DNA of 57,129 nucleotides, taken from a bacterium BMS3Abin06 (GTDB taxonomy: Bacteria > Nitrospirota > Thermodesulfovibrionia > UBA6902). The stretch covers positions 1 to 57,129 of the forward strand of contig BDSY01000065.1 of NCBI GenBank assembly GCA_002897895.1, in the 5' to 3' direction. Made by a program: the position numbers and the translations under genes. How positions within the stretch are numbered: the first letter of the stretch is position 1; every line of letters starts with the position of its first letter. Positions 3,989 through 18,536 of the stretch are shown piece after piece. The notes beneath the pieces are model-generated. The model saw only the letters and a program-made list of their open reading frames with translations. It had not been told where the DNA came from and did no database searches.

Positions 3989-5458
3989 ATGTTTATTACC
4001 ATGATTACATCAGAGTGTGCACCGGCGGCCAAAGTGGGCGGACTTGCCGATGTTGTTTACGGGCTCAGCCGTGAACTTGAGATCAGGGGGAATGATGTTG
4101 AAATCATACTTCCAAAATACGACTGCATGCGTTATGACCACATTTACGGACTTCAGGAGGCATTCAGGGACCTCCATGTCCCTTATTATGATCAATGGGT
4201 TCACTGTTCCGTCTTTTTCGGCTTTGTGCACGGCCGGAAGTGCTTTTTCATAGAACCGCATTCCGACAAAAACTTTTTTAACCGCGGCATTTACTATGGC
4301 CATCAAGATGATCCAGGGCGGTTTGCCTTTTTTTGCAGGGCAGCCCTTGAATTTATGCTGAAGACAAACAAGCACCCGGACATCATCCACTGCCACGACT
4401 GGCAGACAGGTCTTGTGCCTGTACTGTTATTTGATATATATAAATACCTGGGCATGTCCCATCCGCGTGTATGTTATACACTTCACAATCTCAAGCATCA
4501 GGGTGTAACAGGAGAATTCATACTGAATGAAGTCGGTTTAAACCATGCCGGCTATTATTTGAACAATGATCGTCTGCAGGATAATTTCAATCCCTTTGCC
4601 ATAAATCTGATGAAGGGGGGCATTGTCTATTCCAATTTTGTAACCACGGTATCTCCCGGATATGCCGGGGAAATAATGCATACAGACCAGGGTTTCGGCC
4701 TTGGGCATACCCTTCATGTGCACAGCAACAAGTTTGGAGGGATATTAAACGGTGTTGATTACAATGTCTGGAACCCTGAGATTGACAGTTATATCCCGCA
4801 CAAATACGGTATCGGTAATATTGATGCCAAATATGGGAATAAAGAGGCGCTCCGCCACAAATTATTGCTCCGGCAGGAACTTAAGCCAATTATTGCATAT
4901 ATAGGAAGATTAGATCACCAGAAAGGGGTGCACCTGATCAGGCATGCGCTTTTTTACGCCCTGGAACACGGCTGCCAGTTTGTACTGCTCGGTTCAAGTC
5001 CCGATCATGAAATCAACAACTATTTCCGGCATCTCAAACACCATCTGAACGACAACCCTGATTGCCATCTTGAAATAGGTTACAATGAGGAGATGGCACA
5101 CCTGATTTATGCCGGCTCTGATATGATAGTTGTTCCCAGCCTCTTTGAACCATGCGGGCTAACCCAGATAATCGCCATGAAATATGGAACCGTACCCATT
5201 GTAAGGGCGACAGGGGGATTGGGTGATACGGTATTTGATGCCGACTTTGCACATAAGCCGTATCATGAACGCAATGGATATGTATTTCATCATTTCAACT
5301 ATGAGGGGCTGGAATCCGCCGTTCACCGGGCAATTGGAATGTGGTACTCATACCCGCAATATTTCAGGGAGTTGATGAAAAACGGGATGAGATACGACTA
5401 TTCATGGAACCATCCCGGTCAGCATTATCTGAATATTTATGAGTATATCAGAGAGTAA
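3989..5458 (+). CDS. glgA: glycogen synthase (GT5)
   Basis: A 489-residue bacterial starch/glycogen synthase that extends alpha-1,4-glucan from ADP- or UDP-glucose in the cytoplasm. It begins MFITMITSECAPAAKVGGLADV; the KVGGLADV motif (about residues 15-22) is the donor-phosphate binding signature of GT5. Further markers are DIIHCHDWQTGL, YTLHNLKHQG, the IAYIGRLDHQKGVHLI strand, and VVPSLFEPCGLTQIIAMKYGTVPIV with its E-x7-E-like acceptor pocket near the C-terminus. Length fits the family (about 480). It follows the orphan ABC ATPase by about 120 bases. No glgB, glgC or glgP is near, so the rest of the glucan pathway must lie elsewhere. Confidence 0.93.
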   Translation: MFITMITSECAPAAKVGGLADVVYGLSRELEIRGNDVEIILPKYDCMRYDHIYGLQEAFRDLHVPYYDQWVHCSVFFGFVHGRKCFFIEPHSDKNFFNRGIYYGHQDDPGRFAFFCRAALEFMLKTNKHPDIIHCHDWQTGLVPVLLFDIYKYLGMSHPRVCYTLHNLKHQGVTGEFILNEVGLNHAGYYLNNDRLQDNFNPFAINLMKGGIVYSNFVTTVSPGYAGEIMHTDQGFGLGHTLHVHSNKFGGILNGVDYNVWNPEIDSYIPHKYGIGNIDAKYGNKEALRHKLLLRQELKPIIAYIGRLDHQKGVHLIRHALFYALEHGCQFVLLGSSPDHEINNYFRHLKHHLNDNPDCHLEIGYNEEMAHLIYAGSDMIVVPSLFEPCGLTQIIAMKYGTVPIVRATGGLGDTVFDADFAHKPYHERNGYVFHHFNYEGLESAVHRAIGMWYSYPQYFRELMKNGMRYDYSWNHPGQHYLNIYEYIRE

Positions 5459-5800
5459 CAGTGCTTATACTCTTTTTCTTTGAGTGCTTGCAGTCTTTTC
5501 CCTGTTAAAGATATAATAGGGGAAGGAAATTCCTGATACTTTTGCCTGAAAAAAGAGGTTGTTATCTTAAAATATTTTTTTGATAAAAAATAACTCAAAG
5601 AAAAAATTCAGGGAATGAAAAAGAAAATCTTGACTTATTCAGGCAGGAAACGTTAAATTAAATTTATATTATTATTAGGAATGGTATATGCTTTCCTCAT
5701 TAAATTTAGTTTTTTCACCTATTGTCCCGGATGAGATAAACATATCAAGTGCGGCAAAATTTAATTGCAGAATCTAAATTTCATATAAAAGGAAGTAATA
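5459..5800. other. intergenic leader of the radical SAM operon
   Basis: About 340 AT-rich bases between glgA and the radical SAM fusion gene. A weak sigma70-like pair is visible: TTGACT at 5630-5635 and TTAAAT at 5653-5658, 17 bases apart, leaving a leader of about 140 bases. AGGAAG precedes the ATG at 5801. I see no recognised riboswitch and could not identify an ArsR-type operator. Confidence 0.35.
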
Positions 5801-8215
5801 ATGGCAAAAGCATGTTGTGATACAGGAAGAGAAGAAAGAATCAAACAGTACCAGCTTGATCAATGGAGTGTAGCAAATCCTGACCTCAAAGCATTCAATC
5901 CGGATGCTGTTCTATATTCCCCCGAATATATCAGGAAAAGAAAAAACGGGATAACTCTTTTTATAGATCCCGAATCTCCTAACTGGCTCAGTGTTAATAA
6001 TACTGCTGCTGAAATCCTCAAACTCTGCAACGGTAAACATACATTGTCTGATATCCAGGATGCTGTATGTAAGAAATACGGGGTATCCGACAAAGAAAAG
6101 GTTAAACAGGAAATTTCAGATTTCCTCAGTGCAGTCGGATTGCTTGAATTTGTTTCCGACACGCAGTTTGAACGACCTGAATATGCAGGGAGAAGCAAAG
6201 CGATTGCACCCCACAAATTAGACGAACTCTGGATATATTATACGCTTGCCTGTAATCTCAGATGCAAACACTGCCTTGTAAGCGCCGGACAACAGTTAAA
6301 AAAAGAATTAACTCTCGAAGAGTTTAAAGGGGTTGTTGATGAAGCGATAAAACTGGGCGTAAAACGGTTTTATATCACAGGGGGTGAACCGTTTATCAAG
6401 GAAGGTATCTTTGAGCTGATCCGCTATATTACAAAAACCAGGAAACGTGAACTGATTGTCCTCACAAACGCCACGCTTTTTGACGATGAAAAGATTGCAG
6501 CATTAAAAAAGCTTGCGGGCCCCAGACTTCTTCTCCAGGCCAGTCTGGAAGGATCAAATGCCGATATACATGACAAGTTGCGCGGAAAAGGAACTTTTGA
6601 CAAAACAGTTGAAGGAATAAAAAAGCTGAAAAGCATCGGAATTACCCCTATCGTATCAACTGCAATTAATAAATATAATGAAAAGGAAATCCCGAAAATC
6701 TCCAGGTTTCTTTCAAAACTCGGCGTCGAAGAACATAATGTCCTCTGGATGCATGCTAAAGGCCGGGGCGCCAGCAATATGAGTGAATTGTTTGTCCCCT
6801 CTGAAAACATTGCCCGGACAATGAGGCAGCTTAAGAAGACATATAAAGAGCAGGAGATTATTCTTGACAATGTTGAATCGCTGAAAGTGCGGGTACGGAC
6901 CAAGAGAGGAAGAAAAAACGACCTTTGCAATAATTGTTATGAAAAGATTTGCGTAAATGCGGATGGCCATGTTTATCCATGTGCGTCCCTAAACGGCGAC
7001 AGCCGCTTTGATGCCGGTTCTGTCCGCAAAAAATCCCTGGAAGATATCTGGCTTGACTCAAAAGTCATGATAAAGGGCAGAAATAACAGCGTTCAGGATA
7101 AGCCCGAATGCAGAGACTGTTATCTTGAGTATTTTTGCGGCGGCGGATGCACCTCTCACAGTTATTATGCAAGTGAAGTTGACACGGGCAAGGGCTCTAT
7201 CACGGCGCGTGACCCATATTGTTCGACATATAAGTCATTATTTGAAGATATTATCTGGGAGCTGGCTTCCGAGGGGGTTACGCCTCAAAACGGAAAAGGC
7301 TATATATCTCCCCTTGTGTATAATGCCATGGATGCGAAGCTGCCGGGCCATCTGGGTAAGGGAATTAAATCTATTGACAAGAATTTTGAAGTCGGATGTT
7401 ATCATTGTTCCTGCGTGTTGTCTGTTGATGTAGAGGATGACGAAGAAGTTTGCAAACCTGAGATAAAGGGACATGTGACCAAGACAGTGAAGAAAAAGTT
7501 TTCAAAAGCGGCATTCAACCCTGTGGCGGAATACTACTGTCCGACCGGCTATAAACCGGAGGACCTTGCGCATATTCCAAATGAAGTTCTCGATGTATCT
7601 TATGGATGCGGCAATCCAGCGGCACTGGCGGCCATCAAAAAAGGAGAAACAATTGTAGATTTAGGCGCCGGCGGTGGTATCGACTGTTTTATTGCTGCGA
7701 AAAAACTCGGCAAAAAAGGCAGGGTAATCGGGATAGATATGACCGATGAAATGGTTGAAAAGGCGGCAGTCAGCGCTGAAAAGGTTGCTGAGGCACTGGG
7801 CTACAGCAACGTTGAATTCCGGAGTGGAGATATAAGTGAACTCCCGGTTGATGACAACTCGGTCGATCTTGTCATTTCCAATTGTGTTATCAACCTGACG
7901 GAGGACAAAAGTAAAGTTCTGGATGAAATATACCGAATATTAAAACCCGGAGGGAGATTTCTTATTTCCGATATTGTTTCCGACAAACCGGTTCCGGGAT
8001 ATCTCAAAAGAGATAAGGAACTCTGGAGTGCATGTCTGTCAGGCGCACTCACGGACAGGAGGTTCAGGGATATAGCTGAAAATGCCGGGTTCCCGGATGT
8101 CCGGCTGACCAGAAATTATCTCTATAAAAAGGTTGAATATATAGAATTTTTTTCAATTACCATGCAGGGCAGCAAACCCCGTGAAGTCAGCTGCGGGAGT
8201 TGTGCCTGCGGTTAA
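5801..8215 (+). CDS. PqqD-like / radical SAM-SPASM / arsenite-methyltransferase-like fusion protein
   Basis: An 804-residue multidomain protein. Residues about 28-118 resemble a PqqD-type peptide-binding domain (LYSPEYIRKR, a winged-helix-like stretch). Residues 143-350 are a radical SAM core with C151-x3-C155-x2-C158 and a YITGGEP strand. Residues 376-450 form a SPASM-type region with CNNC, VYPC, CRDC and CGGGC for auxiliary Fe-S clusters. Residues about 575-790 form a class I methyltransferase of ArsM type: YGCGNP (C603), VDLGAGGGIDCF (SAM motif I), GIDMTDEM, SNCVINL (C695) and SACLSGAL (C745). The Cys positions match those that bind As(III) in arsenite methyltransferases. Extra Cys-rich patches occur at 533-538 (CYHCSC) and in the tail (SCGSCACG). 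The reaction is unknown; arsenic, another thiophile, or a peptide could be the substrate. Confidence 0.8.
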   Translation: MAKACCDTGREERIKQYQLDQWSVANPDLKAFNPDAVLYSPEYIRKRKNGITLFIDPESPNWLSVNNTAAEILKLCNGKHTLSDIQDAVCKKYGVSDKEKVKQEISDFLSAVGLLEFVSDTQFERPEYAGRSKAIAPHKLDELWIYYTLACNLRCKHCLVSAGQQLKKELTLEEFKGVVDEAIKLGVKRFYITGGEPFIKEGIFELIRYITKTRKRELIVLTNATLFDDEKIAALKKLAGPRLLLQASLEGSNADIHDKLRGKGTFDKTVEGIKKLKSIGITPIVSTAINKYNEKEIPKISRFLSKLGVEEHNVLWMHAKGRGASNMSELFVPSENIARTMRQLKKTYKEQEIILDNVESLKVRVRTKRGRKNDLCNNCYEKICVNADGHVYPCASLNGDSRFDAGSVRKKSLEDIWLDSKVMIKGRNNSVQDKPECRDCYLEYFCGGGCTSHSYYASEVDTGKGSITARDPYCSTYKSLFEDIIWELASEGVTPQNGKGYISPLVYNAMDAKLPGHLGKGIKSIDKNFEVGCYHCSCVLSVDVEDDEEVCKPEIKGHVTKTVKKKFSKAAFNPVAEYYCPTGYKPEDLAHIPNEVLDVSYGCGNPAALAAIKKGETIVDLGAGGGIDCFIAAKKLGKKGRVIGIDMTDEMVEKAAVSAEKVAEALGYSNVEFRSGDISELPVDDNSVDLVISNCVINLTEDKSKVLDEIYRILKPGGRFLISDIVSDKPVPGYLKRDKELWSACLSGALTDRRFRDIAENAGFPDVRLTRNYLYKKVEYIEFFSITMQGSKPREVSCGSCACG

Positions 8216-8245
8216 AAACTAAAACAAGAAAAGAGGTAAGGCCTT

Positions 8246-9727
8246 ATGAGAGTAAGTTTGGTAAATGCACAGGTATTAGACGGTAATAATGTTGTACCGC
8301 CTTTGGGACTAATGTATATAGCTGCCGTTCTGGAAAAGGCGGGACATCAGGTGCAGATATTTGATGCTGATCCTGAATATCAGGCTTCGATGATGCAGGA
8401 GATCAAGAGTTTCAATCCGGAGCTGATCGGCATCAGTTTTTTAACAGTGGCGTACCAGAGGGCATTTAACTTACGCCAGACGCTGAAGAAAGAACTGCCC
8501 GATGTAACTTGCTGCGCCGGGGGAGTACATACAACAGTTAAGCCGGCCGACACATTAAAGGAATTTGATCTTGATTTTATAGTAATAGGCGAAGGTGAAG
8601 ATACAATAGTTGAGGTATGTGAAAAACTGGATAAGAAAGAAGGCGTTGCCGGAGTTAAAGGCGTTATGTACCGTGAAAACGGTGAAATTATCGATAACGG
8701 CGGTCGGGATATGATCAAGGACCTGGATACCATCCCTTTCCCTGCCCGGCATTTGATCGATATGGCTCCCTACCTGAAACCGCCCGGAATTATAAGGGGG
8801 TATGCCGAGAAAAATCAGACAACCATTGTCACAAGCAGGGGCTGTCCTTTTAAATGTATATATTGCGGCAGCCACAATATATTCGGAAGAAAGACGAGGA
8901 GGCGTTCTGTTAAGAACGTGGTTGATGAAATAGAACACCTGCACAAAAATTTTGACATAAAAGGCGTATACTTCTGTGATGATACATTCACGCTGAGCTC
9001 CAAATGGGTAAAAGAATATTGCAGGGATTTAAAGAGCAGGAATCTGAATGTTAAATGGGGCTGTCAGTCAAGGGTTGACCAGACCGACAGGGAATTAATG
9101 AAACTCATGAAAGAGTCGGGGCTTGTCCAGCTTGATTTTGGTGTTGAGAGCGGTTCCGAGAAAATCCTCAAGGTTCTGGGCAAAGGCGGCGCCGGTGACA
9201 GAACCGATCAGATCAAGAAGTCTTTTAAACTTTGTAAGGAGCTTGATATCAGGACACTTGCAACCTTTATAATCGGCAGTCCCGAGGAGACAAAAGAGGA
9301 TATAGATCAAAGCTTCAGAGTAGCAAAAGAGATCAAGGCTGATTATACGGCTTTTTACTTCCTCACCCCGTATCCGGGGACAGATATTTATGATATGGCT
9401 ATTAAAAACGGATGGCTCGACCCGAACCTTCCGTTCTCGGAAATATGGGCGCACAGGCAGCCGGAACTTCCTTTAATGGCCATAACCTTCGGCAAAGAAG
9501 AGCTGAGAGATATCCGCAGACACCTTCAGAACCAGTTCTTTGCGAGAAATTATCTCAGGAGTTCAGGGAATATCAGTTTTTACTCCATACTGCTTACAAT
9601 CCTGTTCAAGCATCCAAAGGTATTCCTGGATGCATTAGGTAAATTAATCAGGACCCGCAGAGTCGATTATATCGTCGAGACCCTTAATGCAGAATACTGG
9701 AGGATGAAGAAATACGAAGGCGCATAA
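8246..9727 (+). CDS. B12-binding radical SAM protein
   Basis: A 493-residue class B (cobalamin-binding) radical SAM protein. The N-terminal 130 residues are a B12-binding Rossmann domain (PPLGLMYIAAVLEKAGH, IGISFLT, CAGGVHTT, DFIVIGEGE). The radical SAM core has C200-x3-C204-x2-C207 within SRGCPFKCIYC, then FCDDTF, QLDFGVESGSEKIL and TFIIGSPEET. Such enzymes methylate unactivated carbon or phosphorus, or act in ring-contraction and lipid chemistry. It starts 30 bases after the fusion gene, with AAAGAGGTAAGG as ribosome-binding site, so the two are an operon and probably act on the same compound. A terminator follows. The substrate is unknown. Confidence 0.87.
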   Translation: MRVSLVNAQVLDGNNVVPPLGLMYIAAVLEKAGHQVQIFDADPEYQASMMQEIKSFNPELIGISFLTVAYQRAFNLRQTLKKELPDVTCCAGGVHTTVKPADTLKEFDLDFIVIGEGEDTIVEVCEKLDKKEGVAGVKGVMYRENGEIIDNGGRDMIKDLDTIPFPARHLIDMAPYLKPPGIIRGYAEKNQTTIVTSRGCPFKCIYCGSHNIFGRKTRRRSVKNVVDEIEHLHKNFDIKGVYFCDDTFTLSSKWVKEYCRDLKSRNLNVKWGCQSRVDQTDRELMKLMKESGLVQLDFGVESGSEKILKVLGKGGAGDRTDQIKKSFKLCKELDIRTLATFIIGSPEETKEDIDQSFRVAKEIKADYTAFYFLTPYPGTDIYDMAIKNGWLDPNLPFSEIWAHRQPELPLMAITFGKEELRDIRRHLQNQFFARNYLRSSGNISFYSILLTILFKHPKVFLDALGKLIRTRRVDYIVETLNAEYWRMKKYEGA

Positions 9728-9761
9728 AAAATATTAAATCAAAAAATTAAAATTTAAGATC

Positions 9762-9805
9762 AAAAAACCGGAGTGGATTTCATGGAAATTCACCCCGGTT
9801 TTTTT
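9762..9805. terminator. bidirectional rho-independent terminator
   Basis: An A-tract, a stem of about 13 bp with two imperfect positions (CCGGAGTGGATTT against AAATTCACCCCGG) and a T-tract. It lies between the B12 radical SAM gene (plus strand) and the site-2 protease gene (minus strand), so it can end transcription from both sides. Confidence 0.85.
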
Positions 9806-9819
9806 GTGCATTTTGAATT

Positions 9820-10656
9820 TCAGATCCCCTGAACAGGCATTGGCGTGAAGGTCAGGATAAAGATGGCAAGTGATATCCAGCCGACAATCTTTCTCTTCCT
9901 GTCTAATTGGATATGAGGGTAAACAACAGGCGGATGCCTGTAACCGAGCACAAGCATAAGGACCGCCCATATCAGCCACCCCGGCCATAGGAAAATACCG
10001 AGAACCACCAGAACAGGGAGTGTCGCTTTTGAAATCCGCTCATGGTTTTCCCCGAACAGGGCATAAATGATATGACCGCCGTCAAGCTGTCCGATAGGCA
10101 GCAGATTAAGCGACGTAACAAGAAATCCGATCCATCCTGCGAAGGCCACGGGATGGAGTATTACATCATATTTTTCAGGATCGATATTCAATACTACTTT
10201 TGAGAGGAAAGTGAAAAGCAGTGAACTTCCGAAGGTGATTCCTTCCTGAAGTTCGCCTGCAGGCCTGACATCGGACAGATACAGGCCTGCAATAGAAGCA
10301 ATAACAGCAACAATGAATCCGCCTATCGGACCTGATGCCCCGATATCTATAAGTGAACGTCTGTCGGGTATCGGGGGTTTCATTTTAATAATGGCTCCGA
10401 AAGTTCCTATGATTGAGGGCGCTGGAATGAAATACGGGAGGGTTGCCGATACATTATGCATCCGGGATGCAATATAATGTGACATTTCATGAGTGAGAAG
10501 TATAAGCAGCAGCGTCAGAGAAAAAGGCAGACCGACGTAAATCTTCTCCGGCTGCTCCCACGGGATTACACCGCTAAGCAAAGCGCCGGCGGACATAGTT
10601 GTCATGAAGGTCAGAATAAAAAGAAGGACATGAAGGCGTGTTAATTTATGCGGCAT
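9820..10656 (-). CDS. site-2 protease family membrane metalloprotease (M50)
   Basis: A 278-residue multi-spanning membrane protein with both M50 signatures: HEMSH (HExxH, zinc ligands and catalytic Glu) in the TLLLILLTHEMSHYIASR helix, and NLLPIGQLDGGHI, whose LDGG Asp is the third zinc ligand. Site-2 proteases cut transmembrane or membrane-near helices, often of anti-sigma factors or signal peptides. No PDZ domain is visible, which fits the short soluble-domain-free subgroup. It overlaps the start of the upstream DUF2062 gene by 16 bases, so the two are probably co-translated. The native substrate is not indicated by the neighbours. Confidence 0.88.
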   Translation of the reverse strand: MPHKLTRLHVLLFILTFMTTMSAGALLSGVIPWEQPEKIYVGLPFSLTLLLILLTHEMSHYIASRMHNVSATLPYFIPAPSIIGTFGAIIKMKPPIPDRRSLIDIGASGPIGGFIVAVIASIAGLYLSDVRPAGELQEGITFGSSLLFTFLSKVVLNIDPEKYDVILHPVAFAGWIGFLVTSLNLLPIGQLDGGHIIYALFGENHERISKATLPVLVVLGIFLWPGWLIWAVLMLVLGYRHPPVVYPHIQLDRKRKIVGWISLAIFILTFTPMPVQGI

Positions 10657-17172: not shown

Positions 17173-17664
17173 TTATTCTACTTTAACGGCAATCTTCTTT
17201 TTCTTCTCTATCTCCTTCTCAGATTTTGGAAGTGTTATTGTCAGAACACCCTTTTTGAAGCGGGCATCGACTTTCTCAGGCTCGATCTCTGCATAGATAG
17301 GGATCGATCTCCTGAACGAACCGTAGGTGCGTTCTTTCATGTAATAGTCTTTTCCTTTGCTCTCCTTCTCCTCTTTCTTCTCGCCGCTGATTGTCAATGT
17401 GTTATCTGAAAGTGATACATCGATATCTTTTTCATCCATGCCCGGCAGCTCTGCGGTGATCTTTATCTCCTTATCGTTCTCACTTACTTCAATGTCCGGT
17501 CTGAATGAGCTGAGGCGTCCACCGAACGGCTCGATCTCAAACCCGCGGAAGAAGTCTTCGAACAGTTTGTCCATATCCTCATGCAGTAAACTGAAAGGAT
17601 TGTGGTCGTATCTTACGGGAACTTTCTTTTTTCCGAATGATGGTACAAGATTTTTGAGTGTCAT
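17173..17664 (-). CDS. Hsp20/alpha-crystallin small heat-shock protein (third of three)
   Basis: A 163-residue small heat-shock protein that forms oligomers and holds unfolding proteins in a refoldable state. The alpha-crystallin domain runs from about 50 to 150: RPDIEVSENDKEIKITAELPG, DNTLTISGEKKEE, GSFRRSIPI, and the end signature KKGVLTITLPK (GVLxIxLPK). The long N-terminal arm (HEDMDKLFEDFFRGFE) is typical of class A bacterial members. No C-terminal IxI motif is evident beyond IAVKV. It is last in the three-gene cluster and precedes the terminator. Confidence 0.94.
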   Translation of the reverse strand: MTLKNLVPSFGKKKVPVRYDHNPFSLLHEDMDKLFEDFFRGFEIEPFGGRLSSFRPDIEVSENDKEIKITAELPGMDEKDIDVSLSDNTLTISGEKKEEKESKGKDYYMKERTYGSFRRSIPIYAEIEPEKVDARFKKGVLTITLPKSEKEIEKKKKIAVKVE

Positions 17665-17696
17665 AAGTCATACCCCCTTTCTTATTTGAAATTATT

Positions 17697-18110
17697 TTAA
17701 GCATTCCCTGTAACAGGGATCTTCTTTGTTTTTGCTCTTTCGGCCTTCGGCAAAACAAGTTTCAATACACCGTCTTTTACTGTTGCCCGGATATGCTCTC
17801 TGTCAATTTCATCAGAAAGAGTGAATGTCCTCTGATAGTCGCCGATTTCATATTCTGAAACAACAAGCCTGTGATTTTCGGGAATTTCGGGTTCAACCTT
17901 TCCATAGATCGTCAGCAAGTCTTTTTCAAGGGTTATATCAACAGAGTTTTCATCCACCCCCGGCATATCGGCCAGAATAACAATATCATTGTTTTTTTCT
18001 ATAATATCAACAGCCGGTGCATATACCCTTGTCTCCCTCGTGCGCTCAACGCCTTTTTCGAGTTCAGCCTCTCTCTTTTGTAGTTCTCTTTTATCCGTCA
18101 TTTTATTCAC
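17697..18110 (-). CDS. Hsp20/alpha-crystallin small heat-shock protein (second of three)
   Basis: A 137-residue Hsp20-family chaperone. The domain begins at VYAPAVDIIEKNNDIVILADMPG, continues through LLTIYGKVEPE and YQRTFTLSDEID, and ends with the GVLKLVLPKAE signature and a short KKIPVTG tail, where KIPV may serve as the IxI/V anchor. The N-terminal arm is short and highly charged (coiled-coil-like ELQKREAELEKGVERTRE), unlike the third gene, which suggests the three could co-assemble. A strong AGGAGG site precedes the ATG. Spacing to the first gene is 3 bases and to the third gene 32 bases. Confidence 0.94.
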   Translation of the reverse strand: MNKMTDKRELQKREAELEKGVERTRETRVYAPAVDIIEKNNDIVILADMPGVDENSVDITLEKDLLTIYGKVEPEIPENHRLVVSEYEIGDYQRTFTLSDEIDREHIRATVKDGVLKLVLPKAERAKTKKIPVTGNA

Positions 18111-18113
18111 CTC

Positions 18114-18536
18114 CTATTCTGATTTGATTTCAATTTTTTTCGGTTTGTCGGACTCCACCCGCGGCAGTGATATATAGAGAACGCCTTTTTTATAAACTGC
18201 ATGTACCTGATTCGCATCAATGTTGAAAGGAAGTTCAATTGTTTTGCTGAAATTACCGTGCCTGAGTTCGTGCCTGTGACAGGATTCCCCTTCTTTTATA
18301 TCGCTTGCCGGACGTGAGCCGCGAAGTGTGACTGTATTGCCGGATACGGAAATGTCTATTTTATCTCTGTCAACCCCGGGTATCTCTGTGGTAACAACAG
18401 CATTGTCTCCATTTACCCACACATTAACCGGCGGGAACTCTTTGCCCGAATTTGATGCTATCCTGCTTAACAAACGGCTCATGCGTTCAAATTCTTTCCA
18501 TGGATCCGGAAACCTTTCTAAATATGTGTCTCTCAT
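18114..18536 (-). CDS. Hsp20/alpha-crystallin small heat-shock protein (first of three)
   Basis: A 140-residue Hsp20 protein and the promoter-proximal gene of the cluster. It has PVNVWVNGDNAVVTTEIPG, the GNTVTLRGSRP strand, FSKTIELPFNID and the closing GVLYISLPRVE signature, ending with KKIEIKSE, where IEI could be the C-terminal IxI anchor. A very strong AAAGGAGGAAGGAG precedes the ATG. The cluster probably has heat- or stress-induced transcription from the region upstream, where a 14-bp inverted repeat with a 9-base spacer lies (18645-18681). Confidence 0.94.
   Translation of the reverse strand: MRDTYLERFPDPWKEFERMSRLLSRIASNSGKEFPPVNVWVNGDNAVVTTEIPGVDRDKIDISVSGNTVTLRGSRPASDIKEGESCHRHELRHGNFSKTIELPFNIDANQVHAVYKKGVLYISLPRVESDKPKKIEIKSE

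Follow-up and report, generated by a model that had tools for sequence, protein, structure and literature searches.

Few bacterial pathways are known that turn arsenite into complex organoarsenicals. The carbon-arsenic (C-As) bonds of arsenosugars and of arsinothricin are made by radical S-adenosylmethionine (SAM) enzymes, and in the papers that we consulted two such enzymes are described: ArsS, which adenosylates, and ArsL, which transfers a 3-amino-3-carboxypropyl group (PMC12159101, PMC8552651). In the ArsM-ArsS arsenosugar route (Synechocystis), the arsenite methyltransferase ArsM and a radical SAM enzyme (ArsS, TIGR04167) act on one arsenical; in the arsinothricin pathway of Burkholderia gladioli, ArsM adjoins the radical SAM enzyme ArsL, and the C-As bond is again made by radical SAM chemistry (PMC8552651). 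Here we describe a gene pair in a 57,129-nucleotide stretch of DNA (contig BDSY01000065.1, our C65; hereafter the window) from the 2.98-Mb, 92% complete genome of the Nitrospirota bacterium BMS3Abin06 (GCA_002897895.1). The first gene fuses a SPASM-type radical SAM enzyme to an ArsM-type methyltransferase, and the second, its partner, encodes a radical SAM protein with a B12-binding fold. The open-access literature, as far as our incomplete coverage of it reached, held no description of an ArsM-radical SAM fusion of this kind. The best-supported reading, to which we assign a probability of roughly 0.55, is that the pair is a compact organoarsenical unit in which ArsM works with a SPASM-type radical SAM enzyme and the partner modifies the product further. 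If so, it would add a third, unrelated type of C-As-forming radical SAM enzyme, fused to ArsM and found in anaerobic subsurface bacteria, and would widen this chemistry; arsenic metabolites would then await discovery outside cyanobacteria, and two genes suffice for testing this.

The fusion gene (positions 5801 to 8215, plus strand, as for all features of the pair) encodes a single chain of 804 residues. Behind an N-terminal Cys5-Cys6 (5813 to 5818) lie a PqqD-like domain (residues 55 to 110, 5963 to 6130; Pfam PF05402, 39.1 bits with a cut-off of 23.4), a radical SAM core (residues 146 to 304, 6236 to 6712; PF04055, 101.7 bits) with its CX3CX2C motif at residues 151, 155 and 158, and a SPASM domain (residues 376 to 441, 6926 to 7123; PF13186, 36.2 bits). 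Alignments reveal a linker cysteine cluster, C533-x2-C536-x-C538 followed by C551 (7397 to 7453), ahead of the ArsM-type domain (residues 573 to 776, 7517 to 8128), which carries C580, C603, C695 and C745 and was delimited by profile, structure and alignment with the solved ArsM, CmArsM. A Cys-rich tail with C798, C801 and C803 (8192 to 8212) ends the protein. The open reading frame (ORF) together with the Pfam and NCBIfam matches bears out the architecture given in an earlier note on this DNA, which had listed the cysteines 151/155/158, 603, 695, 745 and 798/801/803 at just these positions. Pfam assigns residues 612 to 762 to Methyltransf_31 (125.7 bits), and the best NCBIfam match of the whole fusion is the arsenite methyltransferase PRK11873, at 257.8 bits against a cut-off of 263; a close orthologue (G140; G, L and f numbers are our labels for genomes, loci and families) scores 265.9 bits. 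The AlphaFold model of the fusion has a mean predicted local distance difference test score (pLDDT) of 85.3 and a predicted template modelling score (pTM) of 0.74. Foldseek matched its C-terminal half to ArsM crystal structures at 32 to 40% identity, As(III)-bound ones included, and its radical SAM/SPASM half to SkfB, SuiB and an anaerobic sulfatase maturase.

A scan of genome contigs yielded 25 close relatives at 65 to 96% identity, with record titles in Nitrospirota/Thermodesulfovibrionia except for two in Deferribacteres; most are full length, several end at contig edges, and 24 rows were aligned. Since these relatives keep the frame and the adjacent partner, the fusion ORF is not a chance one. 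C603, C695 and C745 align exactly with C72, C174 and C224 of CmArsM. The arsenic assignment in the earlier note depended on these three residues, and orthologues nearly always keep them: C603 in 24/24 rows, C695 in 23/24 and C745 in all 20 rows that reach it. C580 lies 23 residues before C603, a spacing close to that of the first two cysteines of B. gladioli ArsM, at positions 30 and 54 (PMC8552651). Also invariant in the 24 rows are C5 and C6, C151/155/158, eight cysteines of the SPASM region (376 to 450), C536, C538, C551 and C580. The Cys5-Cys6 pair is absent from the distant fusions described below, in which the SPASM cysteines are partly lost as well, and the unfused radical SAM half has the nearly invariant C538 too, at its C-terminal end. 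The linker cysteines 533/536/538/551 and Cys5-Cys6 had been overlooked in the earlier note; both are better conserved than the tail, SCGSCACG, which it had put forward as a possible metal binder. The tail has no conserved motif, its cysteines being present in only 12, 13 and 16 of the 24 rows, and we rejected it as a conserved metal site. The frame is broken in two loci, L024 (10001 to 12417) and L051 (G270), where the fusion gene is split into ORFs of 386 and 414 residues in different frames next to an intact partner gene; either a frameshift or faulty assembly accounts for this.

The partner (8246 to 9727, 493 residues) starts 30 bases after the first stop, as the earlier note had said. It consists of a B12-binding domain (residues 15 to 124, 8288 to 8617; PF02310, 83.7 bits) and a radical SAM core (residues 194 to 358, 8825 to 9319; PF04055, 89.6 bits) with invariant C200, C204 and C207, the two domains found in class B radical SAM methylases. 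Its predicted structure (pLDDT 80.4, pTM 0.83) is closest to AprD4, TsrM and MgmA. It shares fold and CX3CX2C motif with these and with BchE and HpnJ, but identity is about 20% and no curated family cut-off is reached. The two genes are a strict pair: among 396 Nitrospirota genomes, close-type fusions (identity of at least 65%) and partners (at least 75%) occur in exactly the same 22, and five members of the same order (G350, G368, G170, G201 and G304) have neither. In every locus with room for it except L019, the partner lies 3' of the fusion on the same strand, mostly at a distance of 19 to 65 bases (maximum 178). In L019 (9908 to 12217), from a chromosome-scale metagenome-assembled genome, the fusion breaks off at residue 655 and the next 9.7 kb hold no partner, either through decay or through misassembly. 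One genome (G314) has a second partner copy (L131, 8834 to 10315; 67% identical) without a fusion beside it, flanked by genes for a class III aminotransferase and another radical SAM protein. In genomes lacking the fusion, a relative of the partner at 40% identity belongs to a cluster (L132, 8315 to 16406; also L134) that includes a heptosyltransferase-family protein, further radical SAM proteins and PMT-type mannosyltransferases; this setting suggests that the branch acts on glycans or lipids.

In the organoarsenical reading, the ArsM domain, which has the fold, the site and the conservation of its namesake, would bind As(III) through C603, C695 and C745 and methylate it with SAM. The PqqD-radical SAM-SPASM half would then add a radical derived from SAM, with 5'-deoxyadenosyl the likeliest, to the methylated arsenical in its trivalent state, and the fusion would keep this reactive, toxic trivalent intermediate on a single protein. 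In the clade of the window, the partner may alter the product further; C-methylation is one example, a different radical reaction another. The radical SAM half is not ArsS: it scores 80.6 bits with TIGR04167 (threshold 300) over the ArsS domain, is of the PqqD-SPASM type and is only 23 to 29% identical to ArsS in the core. It may nevertheless work like one, a role that we infer from genome context and from mutual exclusion with ArsS. The system also differs from ArsM-ArsS in forming one chain and, in the window's clade, in adding the B12-fold partner, often without TIGR04283. It differs from the arsinothricin pathway in that the partner reaches 67 bits with the ArsL model (cut-off 450) and the score with the arsinothricin ArsM model is 202 against a cut-off of 500.

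The genome context comes from more distant members of the phylum. Full-length fusions 37 to 41% identical over the whole length occur in families f33, f35, f36, f37, f40 and f42, and a copy cut by contig ends in f34 (G131); none of these genomes has the partner. Family f23 encodes the two halves, radical SAM (43% identical) and ArsM, in separate genes. The radical SAM halves form one family, nearly complete copies matching at E values of 1e-93 or better; the next-best radical SAM protein encoded in the loci matches at 2e-30. A C-terminal extension of about 85 residues or more, ending in Cys, is common to the distant fusion, the f23 ArsM and the ArsM of Nitrospira; it is missing from the window's clade, where only the short, variable Cys tail is present. 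In the f23 genome G002, the gene for the radical SAM half overlaps a TIGR04282 gene by 16 bases (202.7 bits, cut-off 134), and G012, G030 and G038 show the same pair. Downstream of the G002 ArsM half come a TVP38/VTT gene and then a TIGR04283 gene (270.4 bits, cut-off 182), an arrangement shared by G012 and G021. TIGR04282 and TIGR04283 are the NCBIfam arsenosugar biosynthesis glycosyltransferase families. Of some 15 loci with the distant fusion, 8 have a TVP38/VTT gene no more than about 3 kb away from it. Genes of all three kinds are clustered with ArsM in G350, which is free of the fusion, and in G032 they are found some 10 kb away from ArsS; the surroundings of the fusion's distant relatives resemble those of the ArsM-ArsS route. 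In Nitrospira, an ArsM 50 to 51% identical to the ArsM domain of the fusion directly precedes ArsS.

ArsS itself is found in none of the 22 genomes with distant fusions or split halves, and 157 other genomes of the phylum have it. These genomes are not independent, and the strongest part of the exclusion argument is therefore the swaps within families: G163, G233 and G329 in f37 and G273 in f34 have ArsS, and their sister genomes have the fusion instead. TIGR04283 is present in 20 of the 22 genomes and TIGR04282 in 17; as a marker on its own, TIGR04282 was discarded as non-discriminating (49/57 genomes). The organoarsenical idea of the earlier note thus gains support from the conserved cysteines, the arsenosugar-type neighbours of the unfused halves and the exclusion of ArsS, and its chemistry we infer. 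A more far-reaching version, which we put forward only tentatively and at less than even odds, is that the SPASM-type radical SAM-ArsM fusion forms C-As bonds and has replaced ArsS in several Nitrospirota families, and that the Thermodesulfovibrionia-type fusion and its partner make a new class of organoarsenical. As a separate observation, one in-frame TGA is present in ArsM-family matches, probably selenoproteins, of L155 and of several f1 genomes, some having the fusion and some lacking it; the ArsS matches of G032, G256 and G348 also contain a TGA.

Several findings weigh against an organoarsenical role of the pair. Of the 22 genomes of the window's own clade, 11 have ArsS as well as the pair, that of the window included, and TIGR04283 is present in only 12 and missing in 10, among them the window's genome, in whose 92% complete sequence it was not found; therefore the ArsS-replacement argument does not reach the pair itself. 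The arsenosugar glycosyltransferases stand beside the split f23 halves and occur genome-wide in most genomes with distant fusions, but not beside the pair in the window, and their family names are annotation, to be read as such and not as function. Next to the pair we identified no arsenic gene, Acr3 being on another contig, and around it we saw neither arsQ nor an ars operon. In the ArsM tree, close fusions form one clade and distant fusions another, and the two stand apart when the tree is free; a joint clade (f23 and f22 included) has an approximately unbiased test P value (p-AU) of 0.25. We tried to read a single origin of the fusion from this tree; it is compatible with one fusion event that was undone by fission in f23 and also with two separate events. 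The fold of the partner leaves cobalamin use unproven, and its closest match, the dehydratase AprD4, is not known to use cobalamin. Finally, PqqD and SPASM domains together are otherwise typical of peptide maturases. In the clade of the window, the pair is a parallel system, and what it makes may be something other than an arsenosugar. ArsS, Acr3 and two TIGR04282 genes are encoded elsewhere in the window's genome; besides the fusion, no PRK11873-type ArsM was found in it (E values up to 1e-30). Some genomes of the clade have a separate ArsM with VTT, accompanied in the fusion-free G350 by both glycosyltransferases. One locus of the window's own genome, L130 (G000, contig C56; 1170 to 3130 and 5498 to 6607), holds a bona fide ArsS (394 bits) 3 kb from an ArsS-like paralogue (241 bits) that adjoins a DVU_1556-like methyltransferase gene (104 bits, below the cut-off); it is possibly a second organometalloid locus.

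The maturase-like half raises the alternative that the pair matures a ribosomally synthesized and post-translationally modified peptide (RiPP): the PqqD-like domain would bind a leader, the radical SAM/SPASM part would cross-link, and the methyltransferase half and the partner would methylate. The fusion has the PqqD, radical SAM and SPASM set of RiPP maturases, and it resembles CteB, SuiB, SkfB and StsB, radical SAM-SPASM maturases with a PqqD-like RiPP recognition element (RRE), in domain order and fold. The nearest solved structures of its radical SAM half are SkfB and SuiB, together with entry 5wgg, which we take to be CteB, and NCBIfam gives 151 bits with the sactipeptide maturase StsB. 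Unlike these maturases, the fusion has a C-terminal ArsM domain and loses SPASM cysteines in its distant forms. A conserved small ORF was found within about 600 to 700 bases of the pair in none of 21 loci, a range that leaves room for a remote precursor; the few recurring small-ORF hits sit upstream, the most frequent apparently antisense to a divergent regulator gene. With the arsenic-site cysteines conserved and the unfused halves adjoining arsenosugar-type genes, we regard a RiPP as very unlikely. The Cys-rich peptide that the earlier note had offered as a substrate finds no support, although the PqqD/SPASM architecture still allows for one. Homologues that never lie near arsenic genes and always near peptide precursors, which the note had set against an arsenic role, are not what we found.

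The pair could also serve another small-molecule pathway, making a cofactor, tetrapyrrole, quinone or lipid, with an ArsM-derived domain that no longer acts on arsenic. It behaves as a vertically kept core function of its clade, in which no recurring arsenic neighbours were seen; the radical SAM half reaches 149.8 bits with NirJ2 and 135.7 with AhbD, and the partner 219 bits with BchE and 209 with HpnJ. All four scores, however, are far under the curated cut-offs, and the three As(III)-binding cysteines are all retained, which would not be required had the arsenic chemistry been lost; we consider this alternative unlikely. Another metalloid or chalcogen (antimony, selenium or tellurium) is conceivable too, as is plain arsenic detoxification by methylation with accessory radical SAM parts. 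The three-thiol site could bind Sb(III), and ArsM-type selenoproteins exist in the family. The one-to-one conservation of two radical SAM proteins with the fusion goes beyond what plain detoxification would require, and most of these genomes already have Acr3. To this last group of explanations we give little credence.

Around the pair, which we continue to read as an organoarsenical unit, flanking genes vary among loci and are housekeeping-like in the window. About half of the loci have, upstream, a divergent gene for a GAF-sigma-54 activator. It prompted a search for a sigma-54 promoter upstream of the pair, which gave no consensus site; a sigma-70-like TTGAC(A/T)...TTAAAT is recurrent there and is a candidate only. 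Riboswitches or other RNA elements in 5300 to 9900 were limited to sub-threshold chance matches, and no plasmid record covers 80% of the fusion query. Farther along the window, at 17173 to 18536 on the minus strand, are three tandem small heat-shock-like genes, of the Hsp20 type by eye.

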